From Microbacteriaceae bacterium (GTDB taxonomy: Bacteria; Actinomycetota; Actinomycetes; Actinomycetales; Microbacteriaceae): a stretch of 63,725 bases of DNA. The first letter of the stretch is position 1, and every line of letters starts with the position of its first letter. The notes beneath the pieces are model-generated. The model was not told where the DNA came from. It searched no databases and worked only from the letters and a program-made list of their open reading frames with translations. The stretch lies in NCBI GenBank assembly GCA_025463565.1, contig JAODAT010000027.1, positions 1-63,725 on the forward strand. The letters are read 5' to 3'. The position numbers were made by a program, and so were the translations under genes. Shown here one piece after another: positions 2,884 through 22,806 of this stretch.

Positions 2884-5745
2884 ATGCTACCCATGACTCT
2901 TGAGGGATCGGCCGCCGATGTTCTCAGTGGGGAGCGTGACGAGTTGGTTCGCGAACTCCGCCGTGTCGTCGGCGGCGTCGTCGACGACGGCACGCGGCGC
3001 AGAGCGGAGTACTCGAGCGACGCCTCCAACTATCGCGTCGTGCCCGACGTGGTCGTCTTCCCGAAGCGCGTCGACGATATCCTGGCGACTCTCGAGGTAG
3101 CGCGGACATCCGGAGTTCCACTCACGATGCGCGGCGGCGGAACGTCCGTCGCCGGAAACGCGATCGGCGCGGGAATCGTCGTCGACACCTCACGCCACCT
3201 GAATCGGATCCTCGAACTCGATGCTGATGGCCGAACGGCAACGGTCGAGCCGGGTGTCGTGCTCGGATCGCTGCAAAAAGCCGCGGCACCCCATGGCCTG
3301 CGATTCGGGCCGGATCCGTCGACCTGGTCCCGCGCAACGATGGGCGGGATGATCGGCAACAACGCCTGCGGCTCGCACTCCCTGGCGTTCGGCCGCACCT
3401 CCGACAACGTGATCGACCAGGACGTCGTGGACGGCACGGGACGGCGCTTCACCGCGGGGCGCGGCGCGGGCCAGGCTCCGGGGCTGGATGAGTTCATCGG
3501 CCGGCACCTGGCGGCGTTCCGCACCGAGCTGGGCACGTTCGGTCGCCAGGTCTCCGGGTATTCGCTCGAACACCTGCTGCCGGAGAATGGGCGAGACCTT
3601 GCGCGCGCACTGGTCGGCACGGAAGGGACGTGCGCGGTCGTGCTCGGCGCGACCGTAAAGCTCGTCAAGACGCCGGAAGCGCCCGTCCTGGTGATTCTGG
3701 GCTACGCGGATATGGCGTCCGCGGCCGATCACGTGGTCACCCTGCTCGCCCACAACCCGGCATCGATCGAGGGACTGGATGCCCGCCTGGTCGAGGCCGT
3801 CCGCGTGGCCAAAGGCCCCGGCGCCGTCGGGGATCTGCCCCGCGGGGGCGGCTGGCTGCTGGTCGAACTGTCAGGCAGCGACCTGGCCGACAATCTGTCC
3901 CGTGCACGCCTGCTCGCCGCGGACTCCGGCTCGCTCGACTTCCGTCTGCTGCCGCCGGGCCCGGAGTCTCGAGCGATCCTGCGGATCCGTGAGGATGGCG
4001 CGGGCCTGGCGGGTCGCACCCCGTCCGGCAAACAGGCCTGGCCCGGATTCGAGGATGCTGCGGTGCCGCCCGAACACCTCGGGACCTACCTGCGCGAATT
4101 CGATGCACTGGTCGCTGAGTTCGGGATCGAGGGGATGCCCTACGGGCATTTCGGGGACGGCTGCATTCACGTTCGGCTCGACATCCCACTCGAGACGAAT
4201 GGGGAGACGCTTGCCGCCTTCATGGAGCGGGGCGCGGAACTGGTGACGCGATTCGGCGGATCGCTGTCGGGTGAGCACGGCGACGGGCGGGCCCGAAGCC
4301 AGCTCCTGCCGAAGATGTATTCGCCCGAACTGATCCGCGCGTTCGAAGAGTTCAAGGGAATTTTCGATCCGGACGGCATCCTGAATCCGGGCATCGTTGT
4401 GCAGCCGGCAAACCTCACCGCCGACCTACGACGACCGAAGGCACTCCCGCTCCTCTCGACCGATGGATTCGCATTCCAGCACGATGGCGGCGATTTCACG
4501 GCGGCGGTCCACCGCTGCGTTGGAGTGGGCAAATGCCGCGCCGACTCGAGCGCGGCCGGCGGGTTCATGTGCCCGTCATTCCTCGCGACCGGCGACGAGA
4601 AGGATTCGACTCGCGGTCGAGCCCGAGTTCTTCAGGAGATGGCGAACGGCACGCTGGTCGGCGGCGGTTGGGATTCTCCGGAGGTGCTCGATGCTCTCGA
4701 CCTGTGCCTGTCGTGCAAGGCCTGCTCGAGCGACTGCCCGGCGGGAGTCGACATGGCGGAGTACAAGTCCGAAGTCATTCACCGTCGATACGCCGGTCGG
4801 ATCAGGCCGGTCAGCCACTACGTTCTGGGCTGGCTGCCGCGATGGGCTCGGCTGGTCTCCCCGGTCGCCGGCCTCGCCAATCGTCTGCTCAGCGTCCGAG
4901 CCTTCCGTGCTCTCGTTCTCCGCTTCGGCGGCATGGATGGCCGCCGGTCGATTCCGGCGTTCGCACCGCGGTCGTTCACGCGGAGCGTCCAGCGACCGCC
5001 GACCAGCGGGACGGGATCAAAACAGGTGCTCGTCTGGGTTGACTCCTTCTCGGACAACTTCACTCCTGACATCGCCCGCTCGGCCATCAGGGTGCTGGAA
5101 TCGGCGGGCTATGAGGTCATCGCCCCAGCGCAACCCGTCTGTTGTGGGCTCACCTGGATCACCACGGGACAACTCACCGGCGCGCGGCGAATCCTGTCCC
5201 GCCTCCTCGACGAGTTCGCCCCGATCGCCGCGGCCGGAATTCCGATTGTCGGGCTCGAACCGTCCTGCACGGCTGTTCTGCGCTCCGACCTGGTGTCCCT
5301 GTTCGCCGACGACGAGCGCGCCAGTCTTGTCTCACACAACACCTACACGCTCGCGGAACTCCTTACCGCGTCAGAGCCGCTCGGGCCGATCGCCGGATGG
5401 GCACCGCCATCGCTTCGGGACGTCGAACTGGTGGTCCAGCCGCATTGCCATCACCATGCCGTCATGGGCTTCGACAGCGACCGAGCGTTGCTCGAGAATC
5501 TCGGTGCGTCGGTGACGGAGATCAGCGGATGCTGCGGGCTGGCCGGCAACTTCGGAATGGAGAAAGGTCACTACGAGGTGTCGGTGGCCGTCGCGGAAAA
5601 TGGGATGCTCCCTGCGCTGAGGACTCGAGGTGAGGGCGTTGCGCTGGTCGCCGACGGCTTCTCCTGCCGGACGCAGGCGTCGCAACTCGCCGGGGTGAAC
5701 GACAGCATCCACCTGGCGCAACTGCTTGCTGCAAGGCTGGACTAG
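2884..5745 (+). CDS. FAD-linked D-2-hydroxyacid dehydrogenase fused to an Fe-S/CCG module
   Basis: About 950 residues combining two modules. The N-terminal half is a GlcD/D-lactate dehydrogenase-type flavoprotein, with a PCMH FAD domain (TMRGGGTSVAGNAIGAGIVV near residue 85) and an FAD-oxidase C domain ending in SGEHGDGRARS. The C-terminal half has ferredoxin-like cysteines (CVGVGKCR near 543, then CLSCKACSSDCPAG near 606) and two cysteine-rich CCG domains (CCGL near 752 and 881). This is the layout of YdiJ-type D-2-hydroxyglutarate dehydrogenases and of glycolate/lactate oxidases fused with their GlcF partner. It probably oxidises a D-2-hydroxyacid and passes electrons to the respiratory chain. 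ATG codons at 2884 and 2893 are both possible starts; a TTG at 2866 lacks a ribosome-binding site. Substrate is not determined. Confidence 0.9.
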   Translation: MLPMTLEGSAADVLSGERDELVRELRRVVGGVVDDGTRRRAEYSSDASNYRVVPDVVVFPKRVDDILATLEVARTSGVPLTMRGGGTSVAGNAIGAGIVVDTSRHLNRILELDADGRTATVEPGVVLGSLQKAAAPHGLRFGPDPSTWSRATMGGMIGNNACGSHSLAFGRTSDNVIDQDVVDGTGRRFTAGRGAGQAPGLDEFIGRHLAAFRTELGTFGRQVSGYSLEHLLPENGRDLARALVGTEGTCAVVLGATVKLVKTPEAPVLVILGYADMASAADHVVTLLAHNPASIEGLDARLVEAVRVAKGPGAVGDLPRGGGWLLVELSGSDLADNLSRARLLAADSGSLDFRLLPPGPESRAILRIREDGAGLAGRTPSGKQAWPGFEDAAVPPEHLGTYLREFDALVAEFGIEGMPYGHFGDGCIHVRLDIPLETNGETLAAFMERGAELVTRFGGSLSGEHGDGRARSQLLPKMYSPELIRAFEEFKGIFDPDGILNPGIVVQPANLTADLRRPKALPLLSTDGFAFQHDGGDFTAAVHRCVGVGKCRADSSAAGGFMCPSFLATGDEKDSTRGRARVLQEMANGTLVGGGWDSPEVLDALDLCLSCKACSSDCPAGVDMAEYKSEVIHRRYAGRIRPVSHYVLGWLPRWARLVSPVAGLANRLLSVRAFRALVLRFGGMDGRRSIPAFAPRSFTRSVQRPPTSGTGSKQVLVWVDSFSDNFTPDIARSAIRVLESAGYEVIAPAQPVCCGLTWITTGQLTGARRILSRLLDEFAPIAAAGIPIVGLEPSCTAVLRSDLVSLFADDERASLVSHNTYTLAELLTASEPLGPIAGWAPPSLRDVELVVQPHCHHHAVMGFDSDRALLENLGASVTEISGCCGLAGNFGMEKGHYEVSVAVAENGMLPALRTRGEGVALVADGFSCRTQASQLAGVNDSIHLAQLLAARLD

Positions 5746-5773
5746 GGTCGGGAGCCCGTCAGCGTGCGGCCAA

Positions 5774-6013
5774 CTACCGGTGATTCGAGCTGCGCCTGCG
5801 CGCCCAGTACACGATCGCGACCACGCACGCTGCTTCTCCCAGCACGTAGATCGCGATTAGGAGGAACGGCAGCGGCGTCTCGCCGAGCAGGAGTTGGCTC
5901 CCGAAGTAACCACCCACTACCGCCCAGATCGCGGCCATGACGATGGCCTGCCCCAGGCTCAAAGAAACAACCCACCACGGGCGTTTGACAGTAACGTCGC
6001 GTGAATCGCTCAT
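5774..6013 (-). CDS. Small membrane protein, two predicted helices
   Basis: A 79-residue protein with a polar N-terminus, a hydrophobic stretch LSLGQAIVMAAIWAVVGGYF, a short loop and a second stretch PFLLIAIYVLGEAACVVAIV, ending in WARRRSS. This is a plausible two-helix hairpin with the positive end cytoplasmic. I do not recognise the family. Its ATG at 6013 shares one base with the TAA of the upstream small ORF (TAATG), so the two are probably co-translated. It is convergent with the FAD/Fe-S dehydrogenase gene. Confidence 0.65.
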   Translation of the reverse strand: MSDSRDVTVKRPWWVVSLSLGQAIVMAAIWAVVGGYFGSQLLLGETPLPFLLIAIYVLGEAACVVAIVYWARRRSSNHR

Positions 6014-6267
6014 TAGACAGACTGTACGCCGCGCTCCGCTTCCTCGGCGCCATCGCGTTTTTCTCCTGCGAGCTGGTCACGTCGGGCAGCCAATGCCCAA
6101 AACAGAGGGGCGCATTCCAGTGTGTACTCATCGCACGAGATCTGCTTTTCTTTGAGCAGGGCATCCAGAGCCTGAAGGCGACCGGCGGCGTCAGGACCGG
6201 GCCGATGACCAGCATGAGAAGCATCGCCAGACATGCGCCGACAACGGGCCAACGTTCGTTCTGGCAT
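6013..6267 (-). CDS. Small ORF with SHOCT-like helix, possibly frameshifted at its N-terminus
   Basis: An 84-residue frame whose stop overlaps the next start by one base. The segment RLQALDALLKEKQISCDEY (about residues 30-48) resembles the short SHOCT-type helical motif found at the end of small membrane proteins. The first 28 residues look non-coding. Over the same bases a different frame encodes a convincing membrane helix, VVGACLAMLLMLVIGP, just before the SHOCT-like part. The intact gene may therefore have been helix plus SHOCT motif, now split by a one-base shift near 6200. It starts 54 bp downstream of galK. Translation of the tail is supported by the TAATG coupling; the start is uncertain. 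Confidence 0.4.
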   Translation of the reverse strand: MPERTLARCRRMSGDASHAGHRPGPDAAGRLQALDALLKEKQISCDEYTLECAPLFWALAARRDQLAGEKRDGAEEAERGVQSV

Positions 6268-17931: not shown

Positions 17932-20031
17932 TCAGTCGATCGGGTCGAGGATCAGCACATCGGCATCAATGGCGAGACCGAACGGCACGACGATGCCAAC
18001 GCTTCGAGCCTCAGCGGCGGACACGACGATGTCTGTACCACGCAGACGGTAACGCCGTGATTCTGCCAGCTGCGTCGGCCGCACCCGAACCTGCTCACGA
18101 TCCGATACGCGATCGCGATCGCTGTCATAGACCAGCACACAGATCGGGTCGGAGACGTTCGTCGTCGCGTATTCGATCGAATAGGTGAGGTCGCTCGGCG
18201 AGCCGTGGCGTATCGAACGGCCACGGTGGATGACGTTCCTGATCGATTTGTACAGCACGATCAGTTCCGCCGCACGGCCCATCCGATCCTCGGCCCAGTC
18301 GAGCAGATCCGCTCCAATGCCGAGCACCCCCGCCATTGCGACCACGAATCGGAATTCGAGACTGGTGGCGCGCCGATCTCGCAGTCCCGGGTCATCCGTG
18401 ACCCAGGAGCTCATCGCGTATGCCGGATATGCCGAGAGGTAGCCGTGCTGGATGGCGAGCCTGTCGCGCGGCCCCGTTTCGTCGCTGGGCCAGACCACAT
18501 CGGCGAGCGCCAGGACGGCATTGTCGATCCGCCCGCCACCGGCCGCACAGGCTTCGAGAGTCACGTGCGGGAATTCGGCTCTCAACATTCGGAGTATGTC
18601 GTAGTAACCGCGGGTGTGCTGCAGGCTCCACTGTCGGCCATGCACATCCCCCGGCCGGCCGCCGTCGCTTATCGGACGATTCATATCCCACTTCAGGTAG
18701 GAGATGGGCGCGGAACGAAGCAGGGACCGCAGCGTCTGCATCACCCAGTCGCAAACCTCGGGACGACCGAGATCGAGTACCAGCTGATTGCGGACGAACA
18801 CCAGAGGCCGAGTTCCGGCACGGTAGACCCATTCCGGGTGGAGGCGGTAGAGGTCGCTGTCCGGGTTCACGGCCTCCGGTTCGATCCAGATTCCGAATTC
18901 CATTCCCTCCGCGATGACCGCATCCGCGAGCTCACCGATGCCGCCGGGGAACTTTGCAGGGTCCGGCGTCCAATCCCCCAGGCCGGCCCGATCGCTTGTG
19001 CGTCCGACAAACCAGCCATCGTCGACGACGAAGGTCTCGACACCCAACTTCCTGGCCCGACGGGCAAGCCGCAACTGGTGATCGAATCGGACATCGAACT
19101 CGGTAGCCATCCAAGAGTTGTAGACCACGGGACGGTGCGCGGCGTCCAGCGAACGAGCGAGCGCGTCACGCTGGTAGTGCTGCCATGCCTGGCTCACCCC
19201 CTCGACGCCGAAGCTGCTCCACACACCGAGGGCGGCAGGGCTCTCAAACAGTTCACCCGGCAGCAGGACAACCGTCGTGGTGTCGTCATCGATTCCGCAG
19301 GAAACCCTCATCCGGTCTCCGACGATCGATGACTCGACCTGCAGCCGCCACGAGCCGCTCCATTCCAGAGCCACTCCGTACGCCTCGCCCTCCCGTCCGA
19401 TCACCGCAGACTCGACTGCGACGACGGGGCTGAATGCGAGGCTCGTGACACCCTGGCGGCTGCCGATGCTGAATGTTCCGAAGCTGAGGTCGATCTGCTG
19501 GGGTTGAAATTCTTGTGCCCAGGCACCCGCCAGGTAGTGGACACGTGACCGCTGTCCCACCGGTAGCGCCCACCCCGCGCTGAAAGCTCGGGGCAATTCG
19601 ATCGTGCGATCCGCGCTCAGATTTTCGAGTGTCATCCACCGCCGCACGACGTCTGTTGCCGGCGTCGCGACGAAAGAGAGAGTCAACCTGAGTTCTCCGG
19701 TCTCATCAGCGAACGGGACCGAGAGCGACCCGGCCTCCTGCTCGAACCGAACCCCAGCGTGCTCCGCGACCCAGGTCGCACCCATCAGGGAATCGCCGCG
19801 GTCGACCAAAAGCTCGCTGAACGCCGTCTGCCTACTTCCACCCGTGGCATATTCGAGGGGCGCGACATCGGAATGCAACCGGTACTGGGGGAATCTTTGC
19901 GGTTCCGACCACGCCGGTACCCCGCCGGGAATTGGGAGTCCCCAGTGATCGAGAACCAGACCGGAGTCATCGGCCAGCAGACTCACCACGTATTCGCTTG
20001 TCGCGGTTCGAAAAGTCCACTGCCGCTGCAT
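17932..20031 (-). CDS. Alpha-galactosidase, glycoside hydrolase family 36
   Basis: A 699-residue protein of normal GH36 size. An N-terminal beta-supersandwich precedes the catalytic barrel, which starts near NSWMATEFDVRFDH. The nucleophile is Asp449 in LKWDMNR and the acid/base is Asp517 in WPSDETGPRDR; the GIWIEPEAVNPDS and CAAGGGRID motifs also fit. There is no signal peptide, so it hydrolyses imported melibiose- or raffinose-type sugars in the cytosol. Released galactose would go to GalK and GalT. The ribosome-binding site is a short AGGGA close to the ATG. A candidate AraC site lies immediately upstream. Confidence 0.95.
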   Translation of the reverse strand: MQRQWTFRTATSEYVVSLLADDSGLVLDHWGLPIPGGVPAWSEPQRFPQYRLHSDVAPLEYATGGSRQTAFSELLVDRGDSLMGATWVAEHAGVRFEQEAGSLSVPFADETGELRLTLSFVATPATDVVRRWMTLENLSADRTIELPRAFSAGWALPVGQRSRVHYLAGAWAQEFQPQQIDLSFGTFSIGSRQGVTSLAFSPVVAVESAVIGREGEAYGVALEWSGSWRLQVESSIVGDRMRVSCGIDDDTTTVVLLPGELFESPAALGVWSSFGVEGVSQAWQHYQRDALARSLDAAHRPVVYNSWMATEFDVRFDHQLRLARRARKLGVETFVVDDGWFVGRTSDRAGLGDWTPDPAKFPGGIGELADAVIAEGMEFGIWIEPEAVNPDSDLYRLHPEWVYRAGTRPLVFVRNQLVLDLGRPEVCDWVMQTLRSLLRSAPISYLKWDMNRPISDGGRPGDVHGRQWSLQHTRGYYDILRMLRAEFPHVTLEACAAGGGRIDNAVLALADVVWPSDETGPRDRLAIQHGYLSAYPAYAMSSWVTDDPGLRDRRATSLEFRFVVAMAGVLGIGADLLDWAEDRMGRAAELIVLYKSIRNVIHRGRSIRHGSPSDLTYSIEYATTNVSDPICVLVYDSDRDRVSDREQVRVRPTQLAESRRYRLRGTDIVVSAAEARSVGIVVPFGLAIDADVLILDPID

Positions 20032-20048
20032 CAGTCCCTAACTATCGG

Positions 20049-20072
20049 TGTGGCAAAACGTTGCTGTGCCTG
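20049..20072 (-). promoter_or_regulatory. Candidate AraC site upstream of the alpha-galactosidase gene
   Basis: On the minus strand the sequence contains ACGTTTTGCC, related to the GCGTTTTGTCC core of the two other sites in this locus and in the same orientation relative to its gene. It begins 18 bp before the ATG. The match is weaker than between the other two sites, so this is a candidate only. Confidence 0.35.
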
Positions 20073-20370
20073 AGCATAGGGTTGCAGCGCCATGGTCGGA
20101 ATGGCGGATCCGCTGATACTCCTGCACAAAACGGTGACCGGACCTGCGCGTTGCAGATCTGGTCACGTGTGGTTAGGCGAGTGCCGGGTCCAGAGCCGCG
20201 GAATTGAGTCGGTGTCCGGCATTGCGCTTACAACAAGTTCCGCCTGTCGCTGGCGTCGCGCTTGCGACCGGTCTTCGCGGATATCCGCTCGCCGCGGGAG
20301 TCTTCGCAGCGCTCGTCGCGGTGGGCGCCGTTCTCACTGGCAGATGCTGAATCGATCACTCTTTCGTTAA
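20073..20370. other. Non-coding stretch with a possible membrane-protein remnant
   Basis: No credible gene with a start codon is seen between the alpha-galactosidase gene and cmtR. One plus-strand frame from a stop at 20174 to a stop at 20349 reads like the tail of a hydrophobic protein (PVAGVALATGLRGYPLAAGV, then FAALVAVGAVLTGRC). It has no ATG or GTG and no ribosome-binding site. It may be the end of a deleted membrane gene once linked to cmtR. Confidence 0.3.
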
Positions 20371-20386
20371 TACAGCTCACGCTGTA
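20371..20386. promoter_or_regulatory. Palindromic operator and -10 region of cmtR
   Basis: TACAGC and GCTGTA form perfect 6-bp arms around TCAC, ending 10 bp before the cmtR ATG. A TACAGT at 20385-20390 is a reasonable -10 hexamer and would start transcription almost at the ATG, giving a leaderless message; no ribosome-binding site is visible. Overlap of the palindrome with the -10 fits the metal-relieved repression known for ArsR/SmtB-family proteins. Binding is inferred. Confidence 0.55.
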
Positions 20387-20396
20387 CAGTCATGTC

Positions 20397-20741
20397 ATGC
20401 TGACGATCGCTTCTCGACTCGACGTGATGAATCGCCTGGGGCGCGCCATGGCAGATCCGACTCGATCGCGCATCCTCATCATCCTTCTCGCCGGGCCGGC
20501 GTACCCCGCGCAGCTAGCAGACGAGCTCGGGCTGACGCGATCCAACGTGTCAAACCATCTCACCTGTCTCCGCGGATGCGGCCTTGTCGTCACCGCGCCT
20601 GAAGGCCGTCAGATCCGCTATGAGATCGCCGACCCGCACCTGGCGCTCGCGCTCACCGCTCTGACCGACGTGGTGCTCGCCGTGGACGAGGGCGCCTCGT
20701 GCCAGGACGACACCTGCACAGTCCCCGACTGCTGCAACTAA
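20397..20741 (+). CDS. cmtR: CmtR-type Cd(II)/Pb(II)-sensing ArsR-family repressor
   Basis: 114 residues. The ArsR winged helix includes MADPTRSRILIILLAGPAYP and LGLTRSNVSNHLTCLRGCGL. Cys57 and Cys61 in the recognition helix and Cys102 near the C-terminus sit at exactly the residue numbers that bind Cd/Pb in Mycobacterium tuberculosis CmtR. The tail carries three more cysteines (107, 112, 113) in a CxxDxCxxxDCC-like pattern. In this family apo-protein represses and metal binding releases DNA. The usual linked P-type or CDF metal exporter is missing; instead a tiny cysteine-rich peptide gene follows after 35 bp. Downstream transcription ends at a strong hairpin. Confidence 0.93.
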   Translation: MLTIASRLDVMNRLGRAMADPTRSRILIILLAGPAYPAQLADELGLTRSNVSNHLTCLRGCGLVVTAPEGRQIRYEIADPHLALALTALTDVVLAVDEGASCQDDTCTVPDCCN

Positions 20742-20776
20742 GCCACCCGTAGACAACGGGTTGGGAAGGAGGCGAC

Positions 20777-20842
20777 ATGACTGACTGCTGCGATGGAAGC
20801 TGTTGCACGGCAGACTGCGCTGAAAGCTGCGTCTGCTGCTAG
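20777..20842 (+). CDS. 21-residue cysteine-rich peptide, metallothionein-like
   Basis: ATG 20777 follows a near-perfect AAGGAGG ribosome-binding site with five bases between. The ORF encodes 21 residues and stops with TAG at 20840-20842. Eight residues are cysteine: 4, 5, 9, 10, 14, 18, 20 and 21, in CC, CC, C, C and CxCC-like groups. The remainder are small or acidic (Asp3, Asp6, Asp13, Glu16). There are no aromatic, Lys or Arg residues. Such a composition has few roles other than thiolate metal binding. It is downstream of cmtR and followed at once by a terminator, so cmtR plus peptide form a complete Cd/Pb-inducible unit. It is much shorter than MymT or SmtA; I know of no named family. Confidence 0.8.
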   Translation: MTDCCDGSCCTADCAESCVCC

Positions 20843-20857
20843 TAACGGCAACGTGGG

Positions 20858-20890
20858 CGCCCCGACCGGACTCGTCCGCTCGGGGCGTTT
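20858..20890 (+). terminator. Rho-independent terminator of the cmtR operon
   Basis: Arms CGCCCCGA (20858-20865) and TCGGGGCG (20880-20887) pair perfectly, the loop contains a further CGGA/TCCG pairing, and TTT follows the stem. It is 15 bp after the peptide stop, which defines the 3' end of the cmtR-peptide transcript. Confidence 0.8.
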
Positions 20891-20983
20891 CCTTCATCTG
20901 ACGCTGATGCCTCGCCCGCTGAACTGCAGTCAATATGAAGTCCGGAGGGCACAAGCCACGGCATCCACGAATTCGTCGACACA

Positions 20984-21175
20984 GTGATCGCTGCACAGGC
21001 CCTGGGCACACCCGATTTCCGGTTCACGTCCGTGTCTCCGGCCCACGAAGTCGCGGACCTCGCATTGCACCTCTGGGAGCTGGGCATACCCCGGCGACAA
21101 GCTGCAGTGACCGGCACCGACGTCGTGATCGTCACCGACTGCAACACTGTGACGTTTTGCACCGTCGTCGGCTAG
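20984..21175 (+). CDS. Hypothetical ORF, possibly a 5'-truncated gene
   Basis: From a GTG at 20984 the frame gives 63 residues ending TDCNTVTFCTVVG. Reading in the same frame extends the protein-like sequence upstream (SHGIHEFVDTVIAAQALG), but a stop lies 40 bp before the GTG and no start codon is available there. The composition looks protein-like (DFRFTSVSPAHEVADLALHL), with two cysteines near the C-terminus. No ribosome-binding site is seen. It may be the end of a decayed gene linked to metal or thiol stress; I do not recognise the family. Confidence 0.35.
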   Translation: MIAAQALGTPDFRFTSVSPAHEVADLALHLWELGIPRRQAAVTGTDVVIVTDCNTVTFCTVVG

Positions 21176-21219
21176 TCAACTAGTGACGCTACTGGCCAAT
21201 AGCCGGAGCGCGCATCGCG

Positions 21220-22806
21220 CTATGAACTGACGCCGGGCGGAAAGTAGTGCTTCTCGGTCGGCATTCCTGAACTCAACGCGATGACCGCATCCCGAATCTC
21301 GCGGTCACGCCCTGTGAAGCGCTGCGTCTGCTGGCGGCGAAACTCAGACCATGACGGAACGACAAAGCTCTCGAGTAGCTGGCGTGCATCCTCGCCGCTC
21401 TCGTAGAGCCGCCAGCGGGTCGCTCCCGTGCGTCGCCGCGAGCTGGCGAGCGTGGTCATCTCAGCCTCGAACGCGGCACGATTCTCTGGTGCGACGTCGT
21501 AAGTGACCATGATCGTGACCGGCCCGTCGGTTGGATGTGGTTCGAAGACGAGCATCGGAACTGGCCACGCGAGGTCGACCGTCCGATCAATGTGGCCGGT
21601 GGAGGCGTGTAGCGGCAGAAGCGGAACGCTCGCCGCGACGAGCACAAGCAGTCCCGCGGTCATGGTGAGTGCGAGCGGAGTTCCGACGGCCTGCGCGACT
21701 GCGCCCCAAAGGTATGACCCGATGGCCATCGTTCCCATGAATACGAGAATGTAAGTGGCTGCTCCTCGAGACCGAACCCATTGCGGGAGTGTCAACTGCA
21801 GCGACGAGTTAAGCACGGTGAGCGTGCCGATCCATGCGATACCGCACAGAATTAGCAGCACGAACGCCGCGGCGAACGGCAGGAACGCGGCCCCGGCCAC
21901 CCCGGCCGCGTAGAGCAGCGCACTCGCTGCGAGGATCACATTGTCCTTCAGACGTGCTCGCGCGAGCGGCAGGGCGAAGACGCCTGCGACCGCCCCGATG
22001 CCGAGGGCGCCGAGCAGAGCACCGTAGCCCGCGGACGTCAGGTGCATCCGGTTCGCGACAAGTGGCAAGAGAGCCCACAGGGCGCTCGCGGGGAGCGCGA
22101 AGAGAGCGGAGCGCAGCAGGATGCGCCGGATCAAATGGGCGGATGCGACGTACCGCACGCCTGCGGCGAGTGCACCCCAGAACGGCTCGCGGTCATCCAG
22201 CCCCGGTTGCGATTCGCGCTTCCACCACAGTAAAGCGGCAACCGCCGCGATGAAGCTGAGCGCGTTGATGCCGAACACGACGGAGGTTCCGAAGAGTGAC
22301 AGCACGATACCCGCGAGCGCCGGCCCGATGGCTCGCGCGCCGTTGACCGTAACACCTCCGAGACCGGACGCGGCGGAGATCTGATCGCGCGGGACGAGCT
22401 CTGGCTGGATCGACTGCCACGCTGGCCCGGTGATCGCGGACGCGGCCCCGAGCAGAGCGGTGAAGAGCAGCAGTAGCCACGGGCTGAGTCCGTTCAGCGC
22501 GGCGACGATGGTCAGTGCGATTGTGACTACGGCACTGACGCCCGATCCCCAGATCAGTAATTTGCGGCGGTCGAGGGAATCGGAGAGTACGCCGGCCGGC
22601 AGGGACAACAGGATGGATGGCGCAAGGCTTGCAGTCTGCACGAGGGCGATGATCGTGGCCCCCGCTGCGCTGTCGACCAGGAACCACTGGGCGCCGACTG
22701 TCTGCATCCAGGTCCCGACATTGCTGCCGAGCTGGGCGAACCACAGCACGCGGAAGACGGGGATCGCAAGCGGCGCCCACGCGGAAACCGCCTGCTTGCT
22801 CACCAT
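21220..22806 (-). CDS. MFS exporter with C-terminal monooxygenase-like domain
   Basis: About 528 residues from ATG 22806, chosen over GTG 22812 because AGGG lies eight bases upstream. Residues 1-400 form a 10-12 helix MFS carrier of the enterobactin exporter/MFS_3 type, with FRVLWFAQLGSNVGTWMQTVG and the loop GVLSDSLDRRKLL. The last ~110 residues are soluble (VTIMVTYDVAPENRAAFEAE, then TGATRWRLYE and FVVPSWSEFRRQQTQRFT) and resemble antibiotic-biosynthesis-monooxygenase (ABM) dimeric barrels. This two-part architecture is known in actinobacterial MFS proteins, but its purpose is unclear. It is monocistronic. The substrate is unknown, probably a small molecule or siderophore. Confidence 0.85.
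   Translation of the reverse strand: MVSKQAVSAWAPLAIPVFRVLWFAQLGSNVGTWMQTVGAQWFLVDSAAGATIIALVQTASLAPSILLSLPAGVLSDSLDRRKLLIWGSGVSAVVTIALTIVAALNGLSPWLLLLFTALLGAASAITGPAWQSIQPELVPRDQISAASGLGGVTVNGARAIGPALAGIVLSLFGTSVVFGINALSFIAAVAALLWWKRESQPGLDDREPFWGALAAGVRYVASAHLIRRILLRSALFALPASALWALLPLVANRMHLTSAGYGALLGALGIGAVAGVFALPLARARLKDNVILAASALLYAAGVAGAAFLPFAAAFVLLILCGIAWIGTLTVLNSSLQLTLPQWVRSRGAATYILVFMGTMAIGSYLWGAVAQAVGTPLALTMTAGLLVLVAASVPLLPLHASTGHIDRTVDLAWPVPMLVFEPHPTDGPVTIMVTYDVAPENRAAFEAEMTTLASSRRRTGATRWRLYESGEDARQLLESFVVPSWSEFRRQQTQRFTGRDREIRDAVIALSSGMPTEKHYFPPGVSS

Follow-up and report, generated by a model that had tools for sequence, protein, structure and literature searches.

A peptide of 21 residues, eight of which are cysteines, is encoded directly behind the metal sensor gene cmtR in a Microbacteriaceae genome, in the position where most of the other CmtR genes sampled are followed by a metal exporter gene. 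The stretch of DNA analyzed, referred to here as the window, is 63,725 nucleotides long, and the features of the cmtR-peptide unit are listed in Table 1. Judged by its conservation among relatives, the peptide ORF is a genuine gene and belongs to a new family of small proteins. We consider it probable that the product is a minimal, metallothionein-like thiol chelator that is controlled by CmtR and takes the exporter's slot, acting on Cd, Pb and Zn, and possibly on As(III). The initial annotation had proposed a metallothionein-like chelator, and we retain this as the best reading given the conservation of the cysteines and the position of the gene.

Table 1. Features of the cmtR-peptide unit, in order along the window. 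Positions are counted from the first nucleotide of the window.
Feature	Position	Strand	Remarks
Operator-like palindrome TACAGC-TCAC-GCTGTA	20371..20386	.	Overlaps cmtR promoter; predicted binding site
Probable -10 box TACAGT	20385..20390	+	Assigned from position and conservation; TATAGT in most relatives
cmtR, Cd(II)/Pb(II)-sensing ArsR/SmtB repressor, 114 aa	20397..20741	+	NCBIfam NF047906 equivalog
Conserved spacer, possible hairpin CCACCCG-TAGACAA-CGGGTTGG	20743..20764	+	Between cmtR and Shine-Dalgarno
Shine-Dalgarno GGGAAGGAGG	20763..20772	+	AAGGAGG, 4 nt upstream of ATG; retained with changes in relatives
Peptide gene, MTDCCDGSCCTADCAESCVCC	20777..20842	+	21 aa, 8 Cys; 16 family copies, alignment A4, codon analysis
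Hairpin closing the cmtR-peptide unit, probable terminator	20855..20890	+	Fold energy, stems in relatives

The ORF was re-found exactly as first described in its coordinates, its 21-residue sequence and its eight cysteines, which lie at positions 4, 5, 9, 10, 14, 18, 20 and 21 (spacing CC-x3-CC-x3-C-x3-C-x-CC), and the strong AAGGAGG ribosome-binding site claimed for it is present, ending 4 nt before the ATG. The cysteine spacing has a single match in the window and none in 100 shuffles. In the related loci L032-L119 and L279-L293, which add up to 949,478 bases, 16,734 starts belong to ORFs of 15-44 codons, and only 23 of these reach at least six cysteines together with 28% Cys; 21 of the 23 are family copies, and the remaining two are nested TTG starts of a single ORF in L037, without a Shine-Dalgarno sequence. 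Nearly all of the Cys-rich starts in related DNA are thus copies of the family, and a chance ORF is ruled out.

Copies were sought with a six-row peptide profile in 398 genomes of Microbacteriaceae representing 85 genera, and 16 were found, spread over 14 genomes and eight genera. An initial scan covering 400 nt downstream of 129 CmtR matches had given Cys-rich ORFs at six loci, all of them in the window genome and its congeners. A four-peptide profile run against the 13 genomes of that genus yields six copies, which come from five genomes; this count omits two weak matches in genome G011 (E about 0.9). All 16 copies are 20-22 residues long and all share the cysteines at 4, 5, 9, 10, 14, 18 and 20; Cys 21 is present in 15, the exception being the first G002 copy, which is one codon shorter. 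The cysteines form CC, CC and CxCC groups in 15 copies, with CxC in the remaining one. Other positions are kept as well, including Ser8 and Ala15 (15/16 each) and acidic residues at 6 and 16 (16/16), and histidine, aromatic and basic residues are absent from every copy; the alignment (A4) contains 15 sequences, the 16th copy being identical to one of them. The initial annotation had remarked on the lack of aromatic and basic residues, which is borne out across the family alignment, and had made its proposal depend on the cysteine positions and the ribosome-binding site being kept in relatives; both are, the latter with changes.

Conservation is that of a coding sequence. For 120 pooled pairs, the peptide frame has a pS of 0.58 and a pN of 0.17, giving a pN/pS of 0.30 as compared to 2.04 and 0.83 in the other two frames; since the pairs are not independent these values are descriptive and do not amount to a p-value. 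Both TGC and TGT are used for cysteine, and the cysteines are retained across TGC/TGT changes. By these codon patterns purifying selection acts in the peptide frame only. The sequence is also conserved on both flanks of the ORF, with hairpins, as might be expected if the conserved block were an RNA element or the decaying end of CmtR, but this has a negligible probability given the frame-specific ratios and the survival of cysteine through codon changes. The CmtR tail with its cysteines is moreover still upstream in the window and in most relatives, and the decayed-tail version of this explanation is ruled out by that intact tail.

The family appears confined in its distribution within the samples searched. 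With a 15-row profile, an order-level sample of 396 genomes (family members included) gave the window copy alone, and a class-level sample of 345 genomes (family members included) gave the window copy plus one weak, partial match of 10 residues (E 0.005); the genera of G338 and G260, with nine genomes each, hold no further copy. The peptide matches no family in Pfam or NCBIfam at E values up to 10, the known metallothionein families included, although this is soft evidence because HMMER is weak for a query of 21 residues. None of the solved structures matches the family profile, Rfam gives one sub-threshold match and nothing else, and tblastn of the 21-residue peptide against plasmids and phages gives no match, where the low-complexity filter may mask it; a loose form of the cysteine-spacing pattern fits at least 120 stretches in viral contigs. 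A conserved family that has no Pfam or NCBIfam match agrees with the initial suggestion that annotation has missed it. No earlier description of the peptide is among the literature matches listed, with coverage leaving aside most subscription papers; Schmidt et al. (2010) reportedly predicted metallothioneins in actinobacteria, and these could include related peptides.

Twelve of the 16 copies lie directly behind cmtR. The neighborhood of cmtR was compared across 136 CmtR genes (E <= 1e-20, a sample that favors close relatives of the window CmtR and includes some genomes twice), with the downstream class taken from the gene within 600 nt on the same strand. The slot 3' of these genes holds a P-type ATPase gene in 94 cases, a CDF-type gene (similar to a single G338 protein that lies above the Pfam Cation_efflux and below the NCBIfam CDF cut-off) in 24, the peptide in 12 and other genes in five, with a contig edge in one; counted by distinct CmtR protein (n=104), the corresponding numbers are 64, 23, 12, 4 and 1. 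None of the 136 has both the peptide and an exporter in the slot, and a P-type ATPase or CDF-type gene follows 118 of the 124 peptide-free CmtR genes. Among the four distinct proteins classed as other, two have a cadmium transporter of the CadD type (Pfam Cad) downstream and the third has a CDF gene (Pfam Cation_efflux), and when these are counted the slot holds an exporter at 121 of 124. Before these additions, the exclusion of peptide and exporter has a Fisher p of 3.6e-12 over the 104 distinct proteins. The peptide therefore sits where an exporter normally adjoins cmtR, as had been supposed from the window.

The exchange concerns the operon and not the cell as a whole, as heavy-metal P-ATPase matches (E 1e-60) lie elsewhere in 13 of the 14 peptide genomes, 12 of them above the cut-off; the match in the window genome is partial and below it. 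Of the genomes with the peptide, 11 of 14 have CmtR (E 1e-20), as do 183 of the 384 genomes without it (p = 0.03, on the assumption that both searches covered the same 398 genomes). Both operon forms occur in G061, where two CmtR genes about 4 kb apart at locus L290 are followed by a cadmium-type P-ATPase gene and by the peptide, respectively. A copper-type P-ATPase gene and a CsoR/RicR-like gene are near the G062 unit, on the other strand. In actinobacteria outside this family, the mycobacterial cmtR operon is described in passages of PMC9045314 as containing the P1B-ATPase gene ctpG, and passages of PMC4531530 place Frankia CmtR-type genes in possible operons with czcD; the sensor family and the operon are the same as here, whereas the partner is an exporter there and a Cys-rich peptide in these genomes.

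Upstream of 10 of the 12 peptide-linked cmtR genes, the palindrome or a block resembling it (GTCAG-N6-CTGTATAGTCA, with variants) was seen by eye, and blocks of the GTCAG-N6-CTGTATAGTCA type were seen likewise before nine of 11 other cmtR genes viewed. With this block common to both groups, one regulatory start seems to drive either partner. Given the -10 box in Table 1, the cmtR transcript would be leaderless or nearly so; a sigma-70 scan of positions 19500-22000 returned no promoter. The window CmtR scores 174 bits against NF047906, for which the cut-off is 150, and has cysteines at 57, 61, 102, 107, 112 and 113, of which Cys57, Cys61 and Cys102 correspond to the metal ligands of M. tuberculosis CmtR. 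Sensing of Cd and Pb by CmtR is described in passages of PMC10961391.

The cysteine-rich end of CmtR bears on an alternative role for the peptide, as a metallochaperone that does not store metal but passes it on, either to CmtR, so that the sensor is reset, or to distant exporters. The 12 copies behind a sensor gene and the P-ATPases elsewhere in 13 of 14 genomes would suit such a role, and the initial annotation had pointed to the resemblance between peptide and CmtR tail as a basis for handover. The C-x4-C-x4-CC tail, however, is a general feature of this CmtR group and is equally present in many exporter-linked CmtRs without the peptide, so it provides no evidence for handover and that argument falls. 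Four copies are not directly behind cmtR, and eight thiols in 21 residues seem better suited to storing metal in a cluster than to delivering one ion. We regard handover as unlikely and the chelator as the better account of the peptide.

Some of the CmtR partners and their surroundings differ in detail. The peptide-linked CmtR of G062 (L288, ~5729-6054) is matched in two frames, reflecting a frameshift or an assembly error, and in G003 (L281, cmtR end near 6243) a TGA truncates the tail with loss of the final cysteine, the peptide being intact; these two, among the 12 CmtR partners, appear altered. Directly upstream of cmtR in G003, on the same strand, is an EamA-type transporter gene (L281:6618-7562, by Pfam) whose product has a long C-terminus rich in His. 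Similar DNA precedes cmtR in G007 (L008), where by eye there is a stop within the His-rich part. CmtR genes occur on plasmids too; in viral contigs 27 stretches fit a CmtR pattern, with none confirmed as a relative.

The spacer between cmtR and the Shine-Dalgarno sequence could be aligned in 12 of the 16 copies, that of G125 being marginal, and it also precedes the G009 copy and the second G338 copy, neither of which is directly behind cmtR. It was unrecognizable in the other four (G164, G061, G304 and G367), which were omitted from the alignment. Across the 12 copies the loop, nnRACAA, is strongly conserved between stem-like flanks; 83% of cells are paired and three sequences have an A-U to G-C double change, with a covariation score that is equalled by 53 of 500 shuffles and so is not decisive, and the ten single-sequence folds made are not significant. 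A translation or RNA-stability element, or a 5' RNA switch, is possible.

The hairpin that closes the unit begins 12 nt past the peptide stop, and the fold energy of positions 20845-20900 is -27.3 kcal/mol (z -2.59). A simple terminator scan found one terminator where 1.4 are expected, which is chance level, and the hairpin draws its support from its conservation in relatives: in 12 of the 16 copies a stem starts 5-12 nt after the stop, with 13-14 pairs when G-T and one mismatch are permitted, and the stem sequences are unlike each other, as expected for a maintained hairpin. Many of the closing hairpins have no T-run behind the stem. The four copies that lack the hairpin (again G164, G061, G304 and G367) were assigned to the family by profile and cysteine pattern, supplemented in two cases by their position behind cmtR. 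The initial annotation had placed a strong terminator 15 bp after the stop; the hairpin itself stands, at the shorter distance of 12 nt and with a T-run often absent in relatives. In the window and three congeners, conserved DNA runs from the palindrome before cmtR to the end of this hairpin and not further. By simple gene calls, 10 of 16 copies have their nearest 3' gene on the opposite strand and six have it on the same strand, the window copy being among the latter with a weak call of 63 aa.

A Cys-rich short ORF followed by a long hairpin, as in these 12 copies, is also what a regulatory ORF would look like, with ribosomes stalling at cysteine codons and controlling transcription through the hairpin. 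Cysteine-responsive attenuator ORFs exist in mycobacteria (passages of PMC9094748, citing Canestrari et al. 2020), and like the peptide gene these poly-cysteine ORFs are short, Cys-rich and actinobacterial. They are described there as leaderless and acting on the operon that follows, whereas the peptide gene has a Shine-Dalgarno sequence, lies inside or at the end of its transcript and mostly ends its unit. A same-strand gene call follows in the six cases just mentioned, but the opposite-strand genes in the other 10 make a common attenuator role unlikely, even if individual copies might act in this way, conservation ends at the hairpin in four species, TGC and TGT are both used, and positions 6, 8, 15 and 16 are kept along with the cysteines. 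The attenuator role is, on these grounds, highly improbable, and membership of the leaderless, operon-leading class was rejected on the Shine-Dalgarno sequence, the downstream strands and the limit of conservation. A translated, metal-binding product remains our preferred interpretation of the ORF.

The four copies that are not directly behind cmtR are those of G164, G009 and G367 and the second copy of G338. In G164 the peptide gene is 40 nt 3' of an arsC-like gene, with ArsR and MIP-channel genes divergent from it. The G009 copy is the last in a run of ArsC-like, ArsR, CDF, second CDF-type and PAP2 genes. The second G338 copy follows a CDF-type gene that is itself behind a gene for a CmtR-like protein (46% identical, 112 bits against the cut-off of 150), and its ATG overlaps the stop of the CDF-type gene; at this locus (L287, 5619-6410) the conserved spacer is part of the CDF-type reading frame, whose TGA overlaps the peptide ATG, an arrangement that suggests translational coupling. 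The neighborhood of the G367 copy includes a UppP gene, and no metal gene was seen there; at L293:6307-6790 there is by eye a possible 34-codon ORF with a His/Asp-rich end that stops just before the peptide start, and further upstream a translation resembling that of a tRNA gene. Several of the cmtR-peptide units have no other metal gene nearby, as far as these were found. The G304 pair is followed by genes for a flavoprotein with weak ArsO similarity (53 bits versus 425), an ArsR-ArsC fusion and an ArsC-like protein, and in G007 and G003 ArsC-like genes converge on the unit from the other strand. The ArsC-like scores are below curated cut-offs, and 'arsenate-reductase-like' is thus a fair wording for these proteins.

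With four copies away from cmtR, of which three belong to arsenic-type or CDF clusters, the peptide seems to be a portable module and not only an accessory of CmtR. These settings could also reflect an origin as an arsenic(III)-specific chelator that was recruited by CmtR later, as the copy behind the arsC-like gene in G164 and those located within or next to arsenic-type genes in G009, G304, G007 and G003 would allow. This we judge very unlikely: 12 of 16 copies are behind a Cd/Pb sensor and one is at the end of a CDF-type gene, the arsC-like proteins do not reach curated cut-offs, and the arsenic-type genes of G007 and G003 are on the other strand. A tree of CmtR proteins, built from few columns, places peptide-linked CmtRs in seven of the eight rows of one fork (support 91/78, below the mark for firm support) and those of G251, G061, G260 and G304 elsewhere, so that peptide-linked CmtRs are not one clade; the G062 CmtR, with its two-frame match, was left out, and two CmtRs that do not directly precede a peptide gene were set apart. 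The scatter indicates that the link has in part been inherited and in part arisen or disappeared repeatedly, consistent with a module that has been brought together with CmtR, CDF and arsenic-type genes.

Returning to the CmtR-controlled chelator, its mode of action may be outlined as follows. The cmtR and peptide genes would form an autoregulated two-gene unit in which CmtR, without metal, represses its own promoter. By analogy with known CmtR proteins, Cd(II) or Pb(II) (or Zn) at Cys57, Cys61 and Cys102 would free CmtR from its operator, and a single transcript would then give both CmtR and the peptide and terminate at the hairpin; metal-induced expression of the peptide is what its position behind cmtR predicts. 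The peptide, acidic and presumably cytoplasmic, would wrap thiophilic ions in a thiolate cluster by means of its eight thiols, buffering metal where the sister operons pump it out, and would in this manner have a protective role. Besides the thiols it has several acidic residues but no further strong ligand. As the module is also present in arsenic-type and CDF clusters, its ligands are probably soft metals generally, As(III) included.

The copies share the sequence features of metallothioneins in being small and very Cys-rich (7-8 Cys), with CC or CxC groups and no aromatic residues. Among known forms, SmtA has about 56 residues with nine cysteines and histidine ligands, MymT has about 53 aa, and the fungal copper metallothioneins have CxC spacing. 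The peptide, with 21 residues, no histidine and no profile match, differs from SmtA in each of these respects; at these approximate sizes it is smaller than MymT or SmtA, as the initial annotation had it, and it is shorter also than the 26-residue fungal forms. The metallothionein gene smtA is under the control of SmtB (passages of PMC7387436), and there, as here, the gene for an ArsR/SmtB-family sensor adjoins that for a small Cys-rich protein, although cmtR and the peptide gene are in tandem and not divergent. MymT of Mycobacterium tuberculosis is likewise actinobacterial and is described as serving copper detoxification. Neurospora crassa and Agaricus bisporus have copper metallothioneins of 26 aa with 7 Cys, which according to passages of PMC4755600 were at one time reported as the shortest; these are similarly minimal and Cys-dominated, but they belong to another kingdom and have 26 residues against 21.

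On balance, we favor the broader proposal that these peptides constitute a new, ultraminimal family of gene-encoded metallothioneins that, with 21 residues and 8 Cys, may be the smallest known. The family would replace the exporter in CmtR operons of Microbacteriaceae, so that one sensor circuit exists in efflux and sequestration forms, and would have moved as a module among Cd/Pb, CDF and arsenic clusters. The peptide is most likely among the smallest gene-encoded metal chelators known. If so, it indicates how small gene-encoded metal-binding proteins can get, and that length-limited gene finders conceal working genes. At 21 residues, synthesis and titration are straightforward, and the peptide could serve as a compact soft-metal tag or sorbent. 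The natural swap of pump and chelator under one sensor family would make the costs and benefits of efflux and sequestration directly testable.
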